Source of the DNA: Devosia beringensis
GTDB taxonomy: Bacteria > Pseudomonadota > Alphaproteobacteria > Rhizobiales > Devosiaceae
Length of the DNA stretch: 64,000 bases
Direction: 5' to 3'
Assembly: GCF_014926585.1 (NCBI RefSeq)
Contig: NZ_CP045422.1
Location: 1,838,501 to 1,902,500 of the forward strand
The notes beneath the pieces are model-generated. The model was not told where the DNA came from. It did not search any database and saw only the letters and a program-made list of their open reading frames with translations. Positions within the stretch are counted from its first letter, which is position 1. The number at the start of each line of letters is the position of its first letter. Positions 5,768 through 16,258 of this stretch are shown here, in pieces. Made by a program: the position numbers and the translations under genes.

Positions 5768-6598
5768 TCAGGACTCCAGCGTTGCTTCGATACGGGCGCG
5801 CAGGGAAGCTGTCACCGTCGGCTGGACGCCGAACCAGGCCGCAAAGCCCGGTACCGCCTGATGCAGCAGCATGCCCAGGCCGTCGACCGTGCGCAGCCCC
5901 TGAGCCGCCGCTTCAACTAGCAGCGGGGTCAGCAGCGGGGTGTAGACGATATCGGTCACGAGCGTGGTTTTGGGCAGAAGGGCCAGGTCGAGCCAGTCGA
6001 AGCGTGTGCCATGCATGCCGATCGCGCTGGTGTTGACCACCAGGCCGATCTGCGGCGCGAGTTCGGCAAAGGCGTCGAAACCATGTGCCTCGAAGGGCCC
6101 GTCGATATCGGCGACGAGGGCCTGGGCCTTTTCCAGCGTCCGGTTGAGCACGTGTACCTTGCCGCCATTGCGCCGGCGCAGCGCGACCAAAACGGCCCGG
6201 GCAGCGCCGCCGGCGCCGATGATCATGGCGTCGTTGGGCCCGTCGGACCAGCCAGGCGCATTGGCGTCGAGATTGCCGAGAAAACCAAGATAGTCGGTAT
6301 TGGTTCCATGCACCTTGCCATTCGTGACCACCAGCGTGTTGACCGCGCCAATAGTGGCGGCCAGCGGGTCGACGCTGTCGCAGAGCGCAAATACGGCTTC
6401 CTTGTGCGGAATGGTGACATTGCCGCCGGCGAATTCGCCGCGGCGCAGACGCTCGAAGAAGACGGGCAGAGCCTCAGGGGCCACATCGATGGCTTCATAG
6501 CTGCCGTCAATGCCGTGTTCTTCCAGCCACTGGCCATGGATCAGCGGTGAGCGCGAGTGATTGATCGGGTGGCCGATCACGAAGGCTTTGCGGGTCAC
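5768..6598 (-). CDS. aroE: Shikimate dehydrogenase (NADP+)
   Basis: AroE reduces 3-dehydroshikimate to shikimate in aromatic amino acid synthesis. In this 276-aa protein the shikimate-binding segment GHPINHSRSPLIH lies at 9-21, and the catalytic lysine K66 is in VTIPHKEAVF. The NADP-binding GAGGAARA loop is near residue 130. The start overlaps the maf stop as ATGA, and the stop lies one base before the coaE start. Confidence 0.96.
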   Translation of the reverse strand: MTRKAFVIGHPINHSRSPLIHGQWLEEHGIDGSYEAIDVAPEALPVFFERLRRGEFAGGNVTIPHKEAVFALCDSVDPLAATIGAVNTLVVTNGKVHGTNTDYLGFLGNLDANAPGWSDGPNDAMIIGAGGAARAVLVALRRRNGGKVHVLNRTLEKAQALVADIDGPFEAHGFDAFAELAPQIGLVVNTSAIGMHGTRFDWLDLALLPKTTLVTDIVYTPLLTPLLVEAAAQGLRTVDGLGMLLHQAVPGFAAWFGVQPTVTASLRARIEATLES

Positions 6599-7197
6599 TT
6601 GAGGGTCTCGGGGTCGATGGTACGCAAAGCGGCCAATAATGGCAGCAGTGGCAGACCCAGAATCGTGAAGTAGTCCCCCACGACCTTTTCGAACAGATGG
6701 ATGGACGGTCCCTCAAGGCGATAGCCGCCCACCGAGGCCAGAACGGCGTCTCCTTCGCGGTCGAGTACATCGTCGCGTTCGGCCGGCGTGAAGTCCCGCA
6801 TCGTCAGTTCGGCGGTCTGCACATCAGACCACAGCAGCTGGCTGTCGCGGACCAGGGCAATTCCGGCATGCAGGCGATGGGTCTTGCCGCGCAGATGCTC
6901 GAGCTGGGCGACCGCGTCAGCACGGTCGAGCGGCTTGTGCAAAAGTTCAGTGCCCAGGCTCAGGGTCTGGTCGGCGCCGATCACGATCGCGCCGGGATGG
7001 TCGCGGGCCACCCATTCGGCCTTGTGCCGGGCCAGCACGGCCGCCACGTCGCGACCATCGCCGCCGGCCGCCAAAGCAGCCGATTCCAGCGCCCTCTCGT
7101 CCAGCTGGGCAGGGGCAGTGGAAAAGCGCAATCCGGCCTGCTCCAGCAAGGCTTTGCGCGTGGTACTCTGGGAAGCGAGGATCAACATGGCTAGCAT
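6595..7197 (-). CDS. maf: Maf family nucleoside triphosphate pyrophosphatase
   Basis: This family hydrolyses non-canonical or modified nucleoside triphosphates to monophosphates and is linked to septum control in some bacteria. The roughly 200-aa protein has LASQSTTRKALLEQAG at the N-terminus (canonical S.SPRR replaced by SQSTTR), VIGADQTLSLG, and the GKTHRLHAGIALVRD stretch. I chose the ATG at 7197, which has GGAAAAC upstream; a GTG at 7218 and an ATG at 7188 are alternatives. It is the first gene of the leftward cluster, and its start abuts the putative replication origin. Confidence 0.9.
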   Translation of the reverse strand: MLAMLILASQSTTRKALLEQAGLRFSTAPAQLDERALESAALAAGGDGRDVAAVLARHKAEWVARDHPGAIVIGADQTLSLGTELLHKPLDRADAVAQLEHLRGKTHRLHAGIALVRDSQLLWSDVQTAELTMRDFTPAERDDVLDREGDAVLASVGGYRLEGPSIHLFEKVVGDYFTILGLPLLPLLAALRTIDPETLK

Positions 7198-7198
7198 G

Positions 7199-7207
7199 TT
7201 TTCCACA
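7199..7207 (+). promoter_or_regulatory. DnaA-box-like site TTTTCCACA
   Basis: It matches 8 of 9 positions of the DnaA consensus TTATCCACA and lies immediately before the maf start, inside the candidate origin. Confidence 0.5.
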
Positions 7208-7283
7208 CTGTCATGCACAGCTCAAGCCCAAGCTGTGACAATGACTCATGACTTCGGCCAATCGGCAAAGTTGTTCGACTTGG

Positions 7284-7298
7284 TTACCGAACTGTTAA
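7284..7298 (+). promoter_or_regulatory. CtrA-type box TTAC-N7-TTAA (7 of 8)
   Basis: TTAC, CGAACTG, TTAA, followed by C, matches the CtrA consensus TTAA-N7-TTAA(C) with one mismatch in the first half. It is the first of three such boxes in the candidate origin. Confidence 0.5.
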
Positions 7299-7342
7299 CA
7301 CTCCGGCCCGGGGCGCCGGTCTCGACCGCCTACTGATAGCTG

Positions 7343-7351
7343 TGGGGATAA
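7343..7351 (-). promoter_or_regulatory. DnaA-box-like site TTATCCCCA
   Basis: On the minus strand it matches 8 of 9 positions of TTATCCACA (A to C at position 7). It lies in the middle of the candidate origin. Confidence 0.45.
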
Positions 7352-7383
7352 CTGTTCGCGGCAGCGCCATGGCTGCCAAGCGC

Positions 7384-7392
7384 TTATGCACA
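7384..7392 (+). promoter_or_regulatory. DnaA box TTATGCACA
   Basis: It is a full match to the relaxed DnaA consensus TTATNCACA and the best DnaA box in the maf-hemE gap. It lies 35 bp before the first perfect CtrA-type box. Confidence 0.65.
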
Positions 7393-7426
7393 TGCCAAAG
7401 CGAATCGTTGACTCCGGAGTCGGCCG

Positions 7427-7441
7427 TTAACGCTTCGTTAA
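7427..7441 (+). promoter_or_regulatory. CtrA-type box TTAA-N7-TTAA, perfect
   Basis: TTAA, CGCTTCG, TTAA has both half sites intact with the canonical 7-bp spacing. A third TTAA at 7448-7451 follows 6 bp later. In Caulobacter CtrA binds such boxes in the origin and silences replication in swarmer cells. Confidence 0.65.
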
Positions 7442-7483
7442 GGAGTGTTAAGCAGAGGTGAAGCGCTGGGCTGCCAGACTCTA

Positions 7484-7498
7484 TTAACAGCGCGTTAA
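7484..7498 (+). promoter_or_regulatory. CtrA-type box TTAA-N7-TTAA, perfect
   Basis: TTAA, CAGCGCG, TTAA. It is the second perfect match in the candidate origin, 57 bp from the first. Confidence 0.65.
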
Positions 7499-7629
7499 GC
7501 ATCAGGCTGCGCGCTTGTGCCACGAGGCAGGGTGATTGTGGACGGGCGTGAATTGCCCCAAAACACCGCCATGATAATACAAATACGAAGTCAGAAAGAC
7601 TCTTTGGGGTTTTGGAAGGGAAGTCGAAC

Positions 7630-8655
7630 GTGATCCATAAACCTCTGCTCGCCACCGTGCTCGGCGAGCGCCAGGCGCGGCCACCGATCTGGATCATGCG
7701 CCAGGCCGGACGCTATCTGCCGGAATACCGGGCGACCCGGACCAAGGCGAAGAACTTCCTCGACCTCTGCTATACGCCTGAGCTCGCCATCGAAGTCTCG
7801 CTGCAGCCGCTGCGCCGCTTCGATCTTGACGCTGCCATCATGTTCTCGGACATTCTCGTAATCCCCGACGCGCTCGGTCAGAAAGTTCGCTTTGAACAAG
7901 GCGAGGGACCGATCCTGGATGCGGTGGACGAGACCAGCATCGCCCAACTGCAGCCCCAACGGGCATTAGCGCACCTGGCGCCAGTGCTGGAGACGCTCAA
8001 GGGGCTTAAAGCTGCGCTGGCTCCTGAGAAGACCCTGATCGGCTTCTGTGGCTCTCCCTGGACGGTGGCGACCTATATGATCGGCGGTCGGGGATCGACA
8101 GATCAGGCCGCCGCGCGGCTGTTTGCCGTTCGCCATACGGATGCCTTCGCAAACCTGATGGATATTCTGGTCGCCACGAGCATCGACTATCTGGTGGCCC
8201 AGTTCGAAGCGGGCGCCGATGTGGTGCAGCTGTTTGAAAGCTGGGCGCTCAATCTGGACGACCTGGCTTTTGACGAGCGGGTCATCGGCCCCAACCGCCG
8301 TATCGTCGAGGGCGTGCGGGCGCGTATTCCCAATGCGCCCATTATCGGCTTTCCGCGCGGTGCCGCTGGCAATTTGGCGCGCTATGCCGCGCAGACCGGG
8401 GTGAATGCGCTAGGGCTGGATTACGCGACGCCGCTCGATTTTGTGTCCGGGCATTTGCCCAAGACGCTGCCGGTGCAAGGCAATCTGGACCCTTTGCGGC
8501 TGGTGGCTGGTGGCGCCCAGATGGATGAACGGGTGGATGCCATCATCGCCGCCTTCAGCGATCGCCCGCATATCTTCAATCTGGGCCATGGGATCGTGCC
8601 GGAGACCCCGATCGATCATGTCGCGCGCCTGATCGACCGGGTGAAAAACGGCTAG
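7630..8655 (+). CDS. hemE: Uroporphyrinogen decarboxylase
   Basis: HemE decarboxylates the four acetate side chains of uroporphyrinogen III to give coproporphyrinogen III in heme synthesis. The 341-aa protein has the signature RPPIWIMRQAGRYLPEY at about 17-33 and MFSDILVIPDALGQ with the catalytic Asp region. It also has GFCGSPWTVATYMIGG and the C-terminal GHGIVPETP motif. I chose the GTG at 7630 because GGAAGGGAAG lies 7 bp upstream; a TTG at 7612 would precede that ribosome binding site. It is the first rightward gene from the putative origin and is followed by hemJ. Confidence 0.97.
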   Translation: MIHKPLLATVLGERQARPPIWIMRQAGRYLPEYRATRTKAKNFLDLCYTPELAIEVSLQPLRRFDLDAAIMFSDILVIPDALGQKVRFEQGEGPILDAVDETSIAQLQPQRALAHLAPVLETLKGLKAALAPEKTLIGFCGSPWTVATYMIGGRGSTDQAAARLFAVRHTDAFANLMDILVATSIDYLVAQFEAGADVVQLFESWALNLDDLAFDERVIGPNRRIVEGVRARIPNAPIIGFPRGAAGNLARYAAQTGVNALGLDYATPLDFVSGHLPKTLPVQGNLDPLRLVAGGAQMDERVDAIIAAFSDRPHIFNLGHGIVPETPIDHVARLIDRVKNG

Positions 8656-8681
8656 GCGTTCGCGCTGATGGGGGCTCTGGA

Positions 8682-9110
8682 ATGATTGAATGGGTCACGG
8701 CACTGCATGTGCTCTCGGTAATCGCCTGGATGGCCGGCCTGCTGTATCTGCCGCGGCTCTTTGTCTATCACGCCGGCGTCGCCGTTGGTTCGGAGGCCTC
8801 CGAGACCTTCAAGATCATGGAGCGCAAGCTCTATCGCGGCATCATGGTGCCGGCGATGATCGCGACCTGGATCTTCGGGTTGTGGCTGGCCTTCGGCCTT
8901 GGGCTGGTGGATTTTTCCATGGGCTGGATGTGGGTCAAGGCGGCGATGGTCATTGCACTGACCGGGATGCAGGGGTTTTACGGCTCTCTGCGGCGGGCCT
9001 TTGCCGAAGATCGCAATACGCGTAGCCACAAATTCTTCCGGGCGATCAATGAAATCCCCTTCGTCCTGGCCATCATCATCGTCATCATGGTGATCGTGAA
9101 GCCTTTCTAG
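8682..9110 (+). CDS. hemJ: Protoporphyrinogen IX oxidase HemJ (UPF0093)
   Basis: This is a small membrane protein of 142 aa with about four hydrophobic helices. It begins MIEWVTALHVLSVIAWMAG, with the family's conserved N-terminal histidine (His9), followed by LPRLFVYH and ERKLYRGIMVPAMIATW. The Lys in MGWMWVKA (K86) sits where the family has a conserved lysine. HemJ oxidises protoporphyrinogen IX to protoporphyrin IX in bacteria that lack HemG and HemY. Its place directly after hemE supports that role, since both act late in heme synthesis. Confidence 0.9.
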   Translation: MIEWVTALHVLSVIAWMAGLLYLPRLFVYHAGVAVGSEASETFKIMERKLYRGIMVPAMIATWIFGLWLAFGLGLVDFSMGWMWVKAAMVIALTGMQGFYGSLRRAFAEDRNTRSHKFFRAINEIPFVLAIIIVIMVIVKPF

Positions 9111-10610: not shown

Positions 10611-11903
10611 ATGCGATCGGGCGATACCATTGTGGCGTTGTCCTCCGGGGCAACGCCGTCCGGCGTCGCCGTCATCCGCCTTTCCGGACCTGACGTCCCG
10701 GCATTGCTACAAGCTGTCGCCGGTACCGTCCCCGAACCGCGTCGATTGACCCTCCGCCCCATTGGCCAGGATTCGCTGCTCGATCGCGGACTCGTTGCAT
10801 ACTTTCCAGCGCCGCACAGCTTTACCGGCGAGGATTGTGCCGAACTGCAGGTGCATGGGTCACCCGCCGGTGTAAAGGCCATCCTGCGGCTCCTCACAGC
10901 ATTGGGCGCCCGTCTGGCTGAAGCCGGTGAGTTCACGCGACGCGCTTTCGAGAATGGCAAGCTTGACCTCGTTGAGATCGAGGGTCTGGGTGACCTCCTC
11001 GACGCCGAAACCGAAAATCAACGGCGCCAGGCACTGGCCCGCTTTGAGGGCGGCTTGAGTCAGCGCGTGGCGGATTGGCGTCATCAATTGCTTGATTTGC
11101 GGGCCGAGATCGAAGCGCGGCTGGATTTCTCCGATGAAGGCGATGTTGCCGATGCGCTGCCGGAGAGTTTTGCCGACAGCATCATGGCACTGCAGAGCGA
11201 CATCATCGCGGCACTGGCTGCGGCGGAAAGCGGCCGTATCATTCGCGAAGGCATCAGAGTGGCGCTGGCAGGCGCTCCCAATGCGGGCAAATCGAGCCTG
11301 CTCAATGCGTTGGCGCGATCCGACATTGCCATTGTCACCGATGAAGCGGGCACCACCAGGGATGTGCGCGAAGTGCCGCTCGATATTGGCGGACAGCTTT
11401 ATATAATACTCGATCTTGCCGGCCTGCGTGACGCTGACAGCAAGGCTGAGGCCGAGGGCGTGCGTCGGGCGCGCGCTGCAATCGAGCAGGCCGACATTGT
11501 GCTCTGGCTCACGGCGCCAGATATCGCCGATAGTGATGAGACGTTGAAAGCCAAGGCCGATCTGCGTATCGGTACCAAAGCCGACCTGGGCAAGCCGGTG
11601 GCTGCTGAACTGCCGGTCTCGGCTGCCACTGGGCAAGGACTGGAAGAACTGATCGCCGCCATAGCGCTTATTGGCGCCAGCAAGACCGGAGGCGAGCCCA
11701 GCCTGCTCAGTCGGGAGCGCGACCGCCTGGCTCTGACAGCGGCGCAGGACGCACTGCAGGCCGCCGCGGCACAGCTAGTGCAGCCGGAACTCGCCGCTGA
11801 AAGTCTGCGTATTGCCTCCCAGGCGCTGGAGCGGCTGATCGGCAAGATAGATGCCGAGCGGGTGTTGGATCGCCTATTTGCCAGCTTTTGCATCGGTAAA
11901 TGA
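10611..11903 (+). CDS. mnmE: tRNA modification GTPase MnmE (TrmE)
   Basis: MnmE works with MnmG to place carboxymethylaminomethyl groups on U34 of certain tRNAs. The 430-aa protein starts DTIVALSSGATPSGVAVIRLSGP, the folate-binding N-terminal domain. The G domain has GAPNAGKS at 221-228, DEAGTTRD, a DxxG motif DLAG, and TKAD where the G4 motif is classically NKxD. It ends in the obligatory CIGK. It is slightly shorter than the E. coli protein. A parS site overlaps the stop codon, and mnmG follows after 113 bp. Confidence 0.96.
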   Translation: MRSGDTIVALSSGATPSGVAVIRLSGPDVPALLQAVAGTVPEPRRLTLRPIGQDSLLDRGLVAYFPAPHSFTGEDCAELQVHGSPAGVKAILRLLTALGARLAEAGEFTRRAFENGKLDLVEIEGLGDLLDAETENQRRQALARFEGGLSQRVADWRHQLLDLRAEIEARLDFSDEGDVADALPESFADSIMALQSDIIAALAAAESGRIIREGIRVALAGAPNAGKSSLLNALARSDIAIVTDEAGTTRDVREVPLDIGGQLYIILDLAGLRDADSKAEAEGVRRARAAIEQADIVLWLTAPDIADSDETLKAKADLRIGTKADLGKPVAAELPVSAATGQGLEELIAAIALIGASKTGGEPSLLSRERDRLALTAAQDALQAAAAQLVQPELAAESLRIASQALERLIGKIDAERVLDRLFASFCIGK

Positions 11904-11916
11904 TTCACGTGAAACA
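11901..11916. promoter_or_regulatory. parS: parS site (15 of 16)
   Basis: TGATTCACGTGAAACA differs from the consensus only at position 3. Its first three bases are the mnmE stop codon. ParB would bind here to nucleate the segregation complex. Confidence 0.85.
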
Positions 11917-11967
11917 TTGCGATGCCTCGACCGGGCTTAGCGACTGCACCCAAATCGACCCGTGAAT

Positions 11968-11983
11968 TGATTCACGTGAAACA
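11968..11983. promoter_or_regulatory. parS: parS site (15 of 16) with nested dyad
   Basis: TGATTCACGTGAAACA is the second copy in the mnmE-mnmG gap. It overlaps another inverted repeat, CGTGAAT-TG-ATTCACG at 11961-11976, so two dyads share one arm. Confidence 0.85.
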
Positions 11984-13879: not shown

Positions 13880-14526
13880 TGACTGATTATTCCGCCATTG
13901 AACCCTATGCCGCCTATTTCACGCGCTCTCTGGGCGCCGTCGGCGCAGATCTGGAATCTTATGCTGTCCTGTTGGCCAAATGGCAGGTGGTACAGAATCT
14001 TGTTTCACGTGAAACACTCGAAGCGGTCTGGTCACGACACTTTGCCGACAGCCTGCAGGTTCTAAGTCTGCTGCAACCAGGTGATCAATCCTTTCTGGAT
14101 ATCGGCAGTGGCGGCGGCTTTCCCGCCTTGCCGCTGGCCATCGCGCTCAAGGGATCAAATCGGCAGTTCACCCTGGTTGAGCCCAATGGCCGAAAGGTCA
14201 GCTTTCTGCGCACGGTAACGCGCGAGCTTGGTCTGCTGGTTGCGGTCGAGGGGCGCCGCAGCGATCAGATTGATTCACGTGAAACACCGGTGCCCGACGT
14301 GATCACATGTCGCGCTCTTGCCAGCCTGCCGCAGCTCTGTGAGTGGATGGCGCCGTTCTTTGGCCCCCACACACGGGCGATCCTGCATAAAGGGCGGGAA
14401 CATGTTGAAGAACTCGCTGAAACGGTTACCCGGTGGGACTTTAACGTGGTATCAACAGCCAGCGACACCGATCCAAGCGGTGTTCTGCTCACGCTCACGA
14501 ATCTGAGCGCGAAAACAGTACGTTAG
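13879..14526 (+). CDS. rsmG: 16S rRNA (guanine-527-N7)-methyltransferase RsmG (GidB)
   Basis: RsmG methylates G527 in 16S rRNA using S-adenosylmethionine. The 215-aa protein has the SAM-binding motif FLDIGSGGGFPALPLA at about 72-87, and NLVSRETLEAVWSRHFADSLQV upstream, the conserved N-terminal recognition stretch. Two parS sites are embedded in its coding sequence (14001-14016 and 14271-14286), both read in the frame that encodes Ser-Arg-Glu-Thr. It is coupled to mnmG by a one-base overlap and sits 24 bp before parA. Confidence 0.95.
   Translation: MTDYSAIEPYAAYFTRSLGAVGADLESYAVLLAKWQVVQNLVSRETLEAVWSRHFADSLQVLSLLQPGDQSFLDIGSGGGFPALPLAIALKGSNRQFTLVEPNGRKVSFLRTVTRELGLLVAVEGRRSDQIDSRETPVPDVITCRALASLPQLCEWMAPFFGPHTRAILHKGREHVEELAETVTRWDFNVVSTASDTDPSGVLLTLTNLSAKTVR
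14001..14016. promoter_or_regulatory. parS: Perfect parS site inside rsmG
   Basis: TGTTTCACGTGAAACA matches all 16 consensus positions. It lies within the conserved LVSRETL coding region of rsmG, 550 bp upstream of parA. Confidence 0.93.
14271..14286. promoter_or_regulatory. parS: parS site inside rsmG (15 of 16)
   Basis: TGATTCACGTGAAACA is the same variant as the two in the mnmE-mnmG gap. It encodes D-S-R-E-T in a less conserved part of RsmG. Confidence 0.85.
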
Positions 14527-14550: not shown

Positions 14551-15351
14551 GTGGCGCCCCGTATCCTGACACTGGCCAATCAAAAAGGCGGCGTGGGCAA
14601 AACCACGACGGCCATCAACCTTGCCACGGCTTTGGCTGCCGTCGGTGAACGCGTGCTGATTGTGGATATCGACCCGCAGGGTAATGCGTCCACGGGACTG
14701 GGGATTTCGCGGAATGATCGCGAAGTGTCTTCCTATGACCTGCTGGTGGGCGATGCGACGGTGGCCCAGGCCGCCATCATGACTAGTGTGCCCAATGTGG
14801 CTATCGTGCCCTCGACCATGGATCTGCTGGGCGTCGAGCTGACCATCGCCGACCATGGCGACCGCGCCTTCAAGCTGCGCAATGCCTTCAAGCAGCTGGG
14901 CGATCTGACGATCAACGAAAAGCCGGTAAGCTATATCCTGATCGACTGCCCGCCCTCGCTGAACCTGTTGACCATCAATTCGCTGGTGGCCGCCGACGCC
15001 GTGCTGGTGCCGCTGCAGTGCGAGTTCTTTGCGCTGGAGGGACTCAGCCAGTTGCTGCAGACCATTGAGCAGATCCGTTCCACGCTCAATCCCGGCCTGT
15101 CGATCCAGGGCGTGGTGATGACCATGTTCGACAAGCGCAATAATCTGAGTGAACAGGTGCTGGCTGACGTGCGCAGCGAAATGGGCTCGCTGGTCTATGA
15201 CACGGTGATCCCGCGCAATGTGCGCTTGTCGGAGGCGCCATCCTATGGCAAGCCCGCTTTGCTTTATGACTTGAAATGTGCCGGCAGCCAGGCCTATCTG
15301 CGGCTGGCCACCGAAGTGATCCGCCGCGAGCGGCAGCTCAACGCGGCATAG
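14551..15351 (+). CDS. parA: Chromosome partitioning ATPase ParA
   Basis: ParA is a Walker-type ATPase that binds DNA non-specifically and moves the ParB-parS complex. The 266-aa protein has deviant Walker A KGGVGKTTT at 12-20 with the signature lysine, VDIDPQGNAS at about 40-49, and DCPPSLNLLT as Walker B. It lacks an N-terminal DNA-binding extension, as expected for chromosomal ParA (Soj). The GTG at 14551 follows a GGAGG-like site. parB follows after 10 bp. Confidence 0.97.
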   Translation: MAPRILTLANQKGGVGKTTTAINLATALAAVGERVLIVDIDPQGNASTGLGISRNDREVSSYDLLVGDATVAQAAIMTSVPNVAIVPSTMDLLGVELTIADHGDRAFKLRNAFKQLGDLTINEKPVSYILIDCPPSLNLLTINSLVAADAVLVPLQCEFFALEGLSQLLQTIEQIRSTLNPGLSIQGVVMTMFDKRNNLSEQVLADVRSEMGSLVYDTVIPRNVRLSEAPSYGKPALLYDLKCAGSQAYLRLATEVIRRERQLNAA

Positions 15352-15361
15352 GAGCCCGACC

Positions 15362-16234
15362 ATGAACGAAAAACCGACACGTCTTGGTCGCGGGCTGGCC
15401 GCGCTGATTGGCGATATGGCTACGGTTGAAGGTGCCCGGGTCACCGAATCGGGTGGCATCAAGCGGCTCCCGGTCGATTTCATCATCGCCAACCGGTCCA
15501 ATCCGCGGCGCTCCTTCAATGACGAGCAGCTCGAAGAGCTGACCAATTCGATTCGCGAGAAGGGCGTCATGCAGCCCCTGCTGGTGCGCCCGAGCAATGA
15601 TCCCAACATTTTTGAGCTGATTGCCGGTGAACGGCGCTGGCGCGCCTCGCAGCGCGCTGGTCTGCATGACGTGCCGGTTATCATCCGGGATGTTGACGAC
15701 AAAGAAGCGCTCGAGCTTGCCATTATCGAGAATGTGCAGCGCGCCGACCTCAATCCGCTTGAGGAGGCCATGGGCTATGGCCAGTTGATCGAGCAATTCG
15801 AATATACCCAGCAGGACCTGGCGCAGGTGATCGGCAAGAGCCGTTCGCATGTGGCCAATACGCTCCGCCTGCTGCGTCTGCCGGAAGATGTGCGCGAGAT
15901 GGTGGCCAGCGGCACGCTGACCGCCGGTCATGCGCGCACGCTGATCACGGCGGAAGATCCGGCGACGCTGGCGCGGCAGATCGTGTCCGGCGGTCTCTCC
16001 GTGCGCGAGGCCGAGGCCTTGAGCCAGCAGCGCGACATTGCCGGCACCAAGAAGCCCACCGCTTCCGCGAGCGAGCGCGATGCCGATACCGTGGCGCTGG
16101 AGCGCCGTCTGTCGGATGCCCTGGGCCTGTCGGTATCGCTGGCGCACGGCGATCGCGGCGGCAAGTTGGAAATCCGCTACAAGACCCTCGAGCAGCTTGA
16201 CGGGATTTGTCTCAGGCTGACAGGTACCAACTAG
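15362..16234 (+). CDS. parB: Chromosome partitioning protein ParB
   Basis: ParB binds parS and spreads as a CTP-dependent clamp. In this 290-aa protein the N-terminus RLGRGLAALIGD resembles the ParA-stimulating peptide. The ParB/Srx CTPase domain has NPRRSFNDEQLEELTNSI and the GERRWRAS motif at about 95-101. A helix-turn-helix (QQDLAQVIGKSRSHVANTLRLL) contacts parS, and a C-terminal dimerisation part follows. It is in an operon with parA. A parS site starts 8 bp after its stop. Confidence 0.97.
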   Translation: MNEKPTRLGRGLAALIGDMATVEGARVTESGGIKRLPVDFIIANRSNPRRSFNDEQLEELTNSIREKGVMQPLLVRPSNDPNIFELIAGERRWRASQRAGLHDVPVIIRDVDDKEALELAIIENVQRADLNPLEEAMGYGQLIEQFEYTQQDLAQVIGKSRSHVANTLRLLRLPEDVREMVASGTLTAGHARTLITAEDPATLARQIVSGGLSVREAEALSQQRDIAGTKKPTASASERDADTVALERRLSDALGLSVSLAHGDRGGKLEIRYKTLEQLDGICLRLTGTN

Positions 16235-16242
16235 GTCTGGTG

Positions 16243-16258
16243 CGTTTCACGTGAAACG
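16243..16258. promoter_or_regulatory. parS: parS site (14 of 16) after parB
   Basis: CGTTTCACGTGAAACG is a perfect 16-bp palindrome that differs from consensus only at the outermost bases. It sits in the 30-bp gap between the convergent ends of parB and holA. Confidence 0.8.

Follow-up and report, generated by a model that had tools for sequence, protein, structure and literature searches.

A very probable hemE-linked replication origin in Devosia beringensis, at which the sampled GC skew of the chromosome does not invert

The gap between maf and hemE

The window, i.e. the whole 64-kb stretch of DNA that was analysed (G000:C1:1838501-1902500, where G000 denotes this genome), lies on a single contig of 4,048,765 bp and contains at positions 7198-7629 an intergenic gap of 432 bp. 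The left flank is maf (6595-7197, minus strand; Pfam Maf, 4.5e-43), which encodes a Maf-like protein and starts with ATG at 7197 or 7188. The right flank is hemE (7630-8655, plus strand; Pfam URO-D, 4.2e-107), which encodes uroporphyrinogen decarboxylase, starts with GTG at 7630 and has its closest match among named relatives in Devosia sp. FKR38 (85% identity). The two genes read away from the gap on either side, as the preliminary description of this DNA had it. The neighbours on the left are maf, aroE and coaE, and those on the right are hemE, rho, mnmG, parA and parB. The G+C content of the gap is 54% versus 63% in the window (A+T 46% versus 37%). Neither the Rfam scan of 6500-8700 nor the tRNA scan of the window gave a match.

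The proximity of parAB-parS, also claimed earlier, is confirmed by Pfam and by a site search. parA (14551-15351, plus strand; AAA_31, 1.1e-57) is followed by parB (15362-16234, plus strand; ParB_N, 1.4e-35 and HTH_ParB, 9.9e-34), and seven parS-like sites with at most three mismatches are found in the 64-kb window versus 0.12 expected, all of them on the hemE side. Those between 11.9 and 16.3 kb number five: two with one mismatch each at 11901 and 11968 (11901-11983), a perfect parS, TGTTTCACGTGAAACA, at 14001-14016, one with a single mismatch at 14271 and one with two mismatches at 16243. Genes for DnaA, CtrA, ParA and ParB are all present in the genome; ctrA scores 426.7 bits against an NCBIfam cut-off of 350.

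Motifs in the gap were called by consensus only: TTATNCACA with at most one mismatch for DnaA-like boxes, TTAA-N7-TTAA with at most one mismatch for CtrA-like boxes and GANTC for CcrM-type sites. The gap contains four DnaA-like boxes (one perfect, three matching at 8 of 9 positions), four CtrA-like boxes (two perfect) and six GANTC sites. The preliminary description had the perfect boxes right, both the one full DnaA box and the two full CtrA boxes, but undercounted the rest, with two 8-of-9 DnaA boxes rather than three and three TTAA-N7-TTAA-type boxes rather than four; its six GANTC sites, said to exceed chance, do so. In 2000 dinucleotide shuffles of the gap, 0.24 DnaA-like boxes, 0.09 CtrA-like boxes and 1.18 GANTC sites are expected, and counts at least as high as those observed occur in 0 of 2000 shuffles for DnaA-like boxes, 0 of 2000 for CtrA-like boxes and with P = 0.0015 for GANTC. 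No 432-bp stretch of the window, taken in 20-bp steps, exceeds any of the three motif counts.

The window and 40 sampled 20-kb stretches, 864 kb of the 4.05-Mb genome in all, were also searched for mixed clusters. One or more DnaA-like sites occur together with one or more CtrA-like sites in ten 450-bp stretches; four of these have just two sites, and the six with more than two all start between 6936 and 7384. Perfect TTAA-N7-TTAA occurs at 33 places genome-wide, two of them in the gap and 57 bp apart. A second perfect pair, 105 bp apart, is found at G000:C1:1917573-1917692 (1917573/1917678). The 700 bp scanned around it contain no DnaA box within one mismatch of the consensus, and the pair perhaps marks a CtrA-regulated promoter. 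A third pair (2380912/2381337) is 425 bp apart.

For comparison with relatives, we collected 47 loci whose hemE is at least 68% identical: 18 on named contigs, of which three carry just the name Rhizobiales or Hyphomicrobiales bacterium, and 29 others. Forty-four have maf beside the gap and, together with the window, give 45 gaps, which reduce to 40 distinct sequences of 424-471 bp. The remaining three loci (L053, L058 and L059), in which maf was not detected upstream of hemE, were dropped; the gap of L058 is 538 bp and is adjoined by aroE. The 40 distinct gaps carry on average 2.90 DnaA-like boxes versus 0.24 in shuffles, 1.35 perfect CtrA boxes versus 0.01 and 6.0 GANTC sites versus 1.5, and every one of them has a perfect TTAA-N7-TTAA somewhere.

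Read from the maf side, the gap opens with the DnaA-like box TTTTCCACA (7199-7207, plus strand), which is the same in 36 of the 40 distinct gaps. It is followed by the 8-of-9 box TCATGCACA (7211-7219, plus strand), which is mostly TCATCCCCA or TCATCCACA in relatives, and, at 7343-7351 on the minus strand, by TTATCCCCA, a position held by TTATCCCCA or TTTTCCCCA in 27/40 gaps. The box that is perfect here, TTATGCACA (7384-7392, plus strand), is perfect in only two of the 40, the commonest form among relatives being TTTTGCACA (19/40). Next comes a cluster of three GANTC sites at 7402, 7410 and 7417 (7402-7421), kept in at least 28, 31 and 27 of the 40 gaps, respectively; the others are at 7243 (32/40), 7598 (25/40) and 7477 (2/40).

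The four CtrA-like boxes all lie on the plus strand. The first, TTACCGAACTGTTAA (7284-7298), has one mismatch and a conserved right TTAA half. The perfect box TTAACGCTTCGTTAA (7427-7441) has both half-sites at a 15-bp span in 38 of the 40 gaps but 26 distinct spacers, and fixed halves around a free spacer are the pattern that a dimer binding site would leave. The third, TTAAGCAGAGGTGAA (7448-7462; one mismatch), is not conserved, and the second perfect box, TTAACAGCGCGTTAA (7484-7498), is perfect at that place in 12/40 gaps. A conserved block at 7509-7524 (around CTTGTGCC) lies between the CtrA boxes and an AT-rich block. On the minus strand at 7534-7544 is a conserved weak DnaA-box core (TCCACA), and a second conserved block, around ATTGTGGA, is at 7535-7544, likewise before the AT-rich block. 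The AT-rich block itself (7559-7590) may serve as unwinding element and/or hemE promoter-leader and ranks with the most strongly conserved parts of the gap. At 0.62 A+T, the 50-mer starting at 7575 is the most AT-rich in the gap, and 0.13% of the 50-mers in the window reach this value. The layout proposed earlier, with DnaA boxes on the maf side and CtrA boxes on the hemE side, therefore holds only roughly, since the CtrA-like box at 7284 sits among the DnaA boxes and the conserved TCCACA core is on the hemE side.

Two motifs looked for are missing: the IHF consensus WATCAN5WTR is absent from the gap and present in only 2/40 distinct gaps, and the E. coli 13-mer with at most two mismatches does not occur in the gap.

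Strand polarity and the position of the origin

To place the gap on the chromosome, sampled 20-kb stretches were re-based on the position and strand of hemE: 43 from this genome (about 20% of it) and 10 from each of ten other genomes (about 5% of each). Family f1 is presumed here to be the Devosiaceae. The KOPS motif used is that of E. coli, GGGNAGGG, and the reversed-read GGGANGGG served as composition control. In D. beringensis, forward and reverse KOPS number 82/20 on the right arm and 28/77 on the left. The same preference, forward on the right and reverse on the left, is seen in 11/11 genomes, with few sites in G212 (10/4 and 2/4). Pooled over seven Devosiaceae, the counts are 212/46 on the right and 75/221 on the left, against 91/57 and 66/66 for the control. 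As the arms are defined from hemE, such totals alone cannot place the origin, and the switches between the arms are more telling.

Opposite hemE, the switch is sharp: in the seven pooled Devosiaceae, KOPS counts go from 11/2 at 0.45-0.50 of the circle to 3/43 at 0.50-0.55, where the control has 2/0 and 9/12. On the origin side it is diffuse, with 9/16 at 0.85-0.90, 12/12 at 0.90-0.95, 21/9 at 0.95-1.00 and 23/6 at 0.00-0.05, so that, going by KOPS alone, the origin could lie anywhere from hemE to roughly a tenth of the circle to its left. The counts at 0.95-1.00 have the sign of the right arm and are no more one-sided than the control (13/4). Over the whole of 0.90-1.00, left of hemE, the pooled 33/21 leans the right-arm way like the control (22/10), as would be expected of a G-rich strand on which KOPS are under little selection close to the origin.

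The diffuse switch leaves room for another reading, in which the gap is only a dense promoter region of maf and hemE, regulated through CtrA and GANTC, and the real origin is elsewhere, e.g. near dnaA, which is located about 160 kb left of hemE at 0.96 of the circle. CtrA and GANTC sites are also common at promoters, the origin-side switch of KOPS does lie left of hemE, near 0.90-0.95, and no GC-skew minimum falls at the gap (see below). We nevertheless regard this reading as quite improbable: the KOPS ratio near hemE is that of the composition control, no DnaA box within one mismatch of the consensus is present in the 3.5-kb dnaA locus (L001), the 864 kb scanned contain no further dense mixed cluster, and the sharp switch opposite hemE fits equal arms only with an origin at hemE.

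The strands of two ribosomal protein genes tell the same as the far KOPS switch. In single- or near-single-contig genomes, rplB (17/17 genomes) and rpsB (18/18) occupy the hemE strand in the first half of the circle and the opposite strand in the second, once the rounding of genome lengths is taken into account: 22 copies before half-way and 13 beyond, i.e. 35/35 placements. Both genes are near the half-way point; the last copy before the switch is at 0.486-0.497 and the first after it at 0.500-0.514, and all 13 left-arm copies lie within about 0.11 of half-way. These placements are not independent, as the genomes are related and inversions symmetric about the terminus would move strand and arm together; independent or not, they put the axis through hemE and the point opposite it. 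A switch of both KOPS and rplB/rpsB at half the circle, with equal arms, places the origin at hemE.

Other markers were less useful. The atp operon is uninformative for the left arm, being in the right arm in 18/18 genomes; it is on the hemE strand in 16/18 and on the opposite strand in G028 and G039, of which G028 also has the weakest net strand excess (see below). The 16S rRNA search recovered only 9/14 control genomes and none in D. beringensis, and a dif-type pattern had no match.

The motif enrichment, the conservation in 40 distinct related gaps and the polarity switch on the opposite side of the chromosome support the earlier proposal of a candidate origin, and the maf/hemE gap at 7198-7629 is very probably the chromosomal oriC, of the hemE-linked alphaproteobacterial (Caulobacter) type. 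At such an origin, DnaA would assemble on the box cluster at 7199-7392, with the weaker conserved core near 7540, and would open the conserved AT-rich block beside hemE. Phosphorylated CtrA bound to the two mid-gap TTAA-N7-TTAA boxes may block this opening until it is removed, and CcrM methylation of the GANTC cluster at 7402-7421 may mark whether the region has already been replicated. Separation of the new origins would then fall to ParAB and the parS sites, which lie 4-9 kb away.

A matching gap of 405 bp is found in Sinorhizobium medicae between hemE and a Kinase-PPPase gene (Pfam), which we take to be COG1806. This gene sits there between maf and the gap, and the flanks are those given for Caulobacter and Rickettsia origins, a COG1806 gene and hemE, in PMC1914354. 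The 44 maf-flanked gaps are too short to hold a Kinase-PPPase gene. No perfect TTAA-N7-TTAA is found between maf and hemE at the S. medicae locus (L076).

As described in PMC1914354, the Cori of Caulobacter crescentus resembles the Devosia gap in being beside hemE, about 400 bp long and AT-richer, with several DnaA and TTAA-N7-TTAA sites and an encoded CtrA. The Devosia gap differs in having maf rather than COG1806 on its other side, and differs from Caulobacter-type origins in having neither an IHF consensus nor a GC-skew shift (PMC1914354). Its conserved GANTC cluster is a possible further difference. Among the features by which alphaproteobacterial origins are recognized in PMC1914354, the gap thus has a length of 200-1000 bp and a place beside hemE or COG1806 (here hemE), multiple DnaA and CtrA sites that outnumber those of the rest of the 864 kb scanned, higher AT content and conservation in close relatives, and lacks the IHF site and the skew shift; according to the same paper, not all of them need be present in every genome. 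The origin is ordinary in kind, yet useful: with it, Devosia has a likely site for replication to start and a set of conserved boxes.

A GC skew of one sign

A strand bias that is expected to flip at the origin keeps one sign in nearly every stretch sampled. In D. beringensis, GC skew is positive in 43/44 sampled segments around the circle and, at four-fold sites after correction for gene orientation, in 41/44. The preliminary description had predicted a skew minimum at the gap; none was found, the sign being the same on both sides in the sampled stretches. A skew that does not flip has no minimum elsewhere either, and hence does not refute the origin, but the skew test is unusable here.

In all seven sampled Devosiaceae, the point estimates are positive on both arms, G being in excess on the hemE strand. 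The strand component at four-fold sites, right arm/left arm, is.114/.075 in D. beringensis,.127/.060 in G015,.126/.065 in G060,.100/.098 in G012,.085/.041 in G022,.113/.084 in G025 and.239/.044 in G129. The uniform part of the skew ranges from 0.063 to 0.142, each 95% interval lying above zero, while for the left arm taken by itself zero lies within the interval in G012, G022 and G129. When the six Devosia are pooled, each of the eight four-fold codon families has a positive value on either arm, and the skew stays positive whichever way the genes point and in sequence beyond the kept ORFs. All ten distance bins are positive as well, that at 0.5-0.6 with an interval that includes zero; the left-arm bin adjoining hemE has +0.064 [0.020, 0.099]. 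A weaker two-arm part of normal sign is also present (pooled 0.019 [0.003, 0.036]). The uniform skew is weakest opposite the origin, at 0.4-0.6 of the circle (bins +0.051 and +0.038), as frequent inversions there would make it.

The four outgroups differ among themselves: G117 (.052/-.048) and G192 (.101/-.041) flip, G212 has almost no skew, and G136 (family f15;.072/.053) is uniform. The two-arm part excludes zero only in G192 and not in G117; in the two genomes pooled, 8/8 codon families are positive on the right and 8/8 negative on the left. A T-over-A companion of the G-excess is present in G117 and G192 and is not seen in the six Devosia.

As a whole-chromosome check, GGTGGCG and its reversed-read pattern were counted on both strands of 34 one-contig genomes (G129 has two contigs). 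All 18 Devosiaceae have an excess of GGTGGCG on the hemE strand, with ratios of 1.11-2.26 and z of 2.7 in G028 and at least 5.9 in the others. The reversed-read pattern, whose choice was not ours, has the same sign in 18/18, not significantly so in G028 (z 0.4) and G042 (z 1.1). In other families, the excess is on the hemE strand in 13/16 genomes, and the three others are opposite, G128 significantly. Of the 13, G136, already noted for its uniform skew outside the Devosiaceae, is strong (1.75), G092, G113, G138, G218 and G219 are moderate (1.26-1.38), and seven are weak (1.04-1.16); in genomes without arm sampling, a moderate excess could come from unequal arm lengths.

The origin is thus well supported and known in kind, and the sampled GC skew of the chromosome does not invert at it. 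Origins are routinely located by GC skew, which makes the skew result more important than the assignment of oriC: the skew is silent although the origin is otherwise well marked, and skew-based predictors may therefore miss or misplace it in Devosiaceae. In PMC9836097, the skew distribution of Rhizobiales is described as bimodal, with an unambiguous origin in 133/462 closed genomes, and Devosia goes unnamed in the main text. In Wolbachia, for which GC skew failed, the origin was assigned by means of hemE and of sites for DnaA and CtrA (PMC1914354); there, no clear skew shift was seen and recombination was suggested, whereas in Devosia the skew is clear and of one sign. Our search of the literature on Devosia GC skew, which did not extend to the replicon list in Table S1 of PMC7858055, found no report of a one-sign skew.

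Possible causes of the one-sign skew

The composition would be explained if replication ran mostly rightward, but two forks are favoured by KOPS and by the strands of the ribosomal genes. A reading that covers both is that two forks are built in and that, over evolutionary time, the fork directed into hemE has copied most of the left arm too. The left-moving fork would often fail to start or finish, perhaps in slow growth; composition would then record rightward copying, and the orientation of genes and KOPS would record fast two-fork growth. This is a real possibility, if short of a probable one. It would account for a four-fold component that is positive in both arms of 7/7 Devosiaceae with a uniform part above zero, for the positive values in all eight codon families, in non-ORF sequence and in all ten distance bins of the pooled Devosia, and for a sign that follows the hemE strand in 18/18 Devosiaceae chromosomes. 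The small two-arm part of normal sign (0.019) would be the remnant of the left fork, and G129, with 0.239 on the right versus 0.044 on the left, resembles a mixture. What sits badly with dominance of one fork is the sharp inversion of KOPS polarity at half the circle and, on the left arm, the 13/13 rplB/rpsB copies on the leftward-leading strand (though all are near half-way) and a preference of coding sequence for the leftward strand (57%). In addition, the T-over-A companion seen in G117 and G192 is missing in the six Devosia.

One-way replication has precedents. According to PMC7858055, Pseudoalteromonas chromids replicate one-way, as shown by sequencing depth, and skew predicts one-way replication for 77 of 16,103 large replicons, some of them in Alphaproteobacteria. 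The chromids share with Devosia a GC skew without the usual inversion (PMC7858055). However, the proven one-way replicons in PMC7858055 and PMC13342612 are secondary and most have dif beside ori, whereas here the replicon is a 4.05-Mb single contig on which KOPS converge opposite hemE, a further point against one dominant fork. All chromosomes in the coverage panel of PMC13342612 are reported to replicate two-way. We suggest only tentatively, with the balance against it, that in nature the main chromosome of Devosiaceae is copied mostly by one hemE-directed fork, which covers most of the circle, the left fork being weak, late or conditional. If true, this would be an exception, in an easily grown soil genus, to a rule held general for the main chromosomes of bacteria.

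A fork-independent strand effect is nearly as likely as dominance of one fork. Replication would be ordinarily two-way, and a process fixed to the strand rather than linked to the forks would load G on one strand of the circle, e.g. if, once the cell has divided, its parental strands meet different fates. The two-way architecture signals (KOPS, rplB/rpsB) fit directly, and the letter signature of the uniform part in the six Devosia differs from that of the fork-linked part in G117 and G192. The data point to no such process in particular, and we know of no mutational process besides one-way traversal that tells the two strands of a circle apart; taken by itself, we regard this explanation as doubtful. 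If replication is not one-way, some new kind of process tells one strand of a circular chromosome from the other.

That assembly, sampling or codon usage produced the skew artificially is highly unlikely: the skew is read from 20-kb samples only and the whole-chromosome evidence is one heptamer and its reverse, but the sign is the same in 18/18 chromosomes including the reversed-read control (G028 and G042 not significant there), the skew is positive for either gene orientation and in sequence beyond the kept ORFs, and in G117 and G192 the identical script finds the two arms opposite in sign, albeit with wide intervals. Two further candidate causes were rejected. An inversion of one arm would have inverted KOPS along with the skew, and a displaced terminus as the sole cause would not fit, there being no left-arm bin of opposite sign and a KOPS switch at one half.

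The same-sign excess in 13/16 other Hyphomicrobiales possibly reflects a left-right inequality throughout the order. If the one-fork reading is true, this mostly weaker excess would mark a graded, order-wide inequality between the left and right forks.
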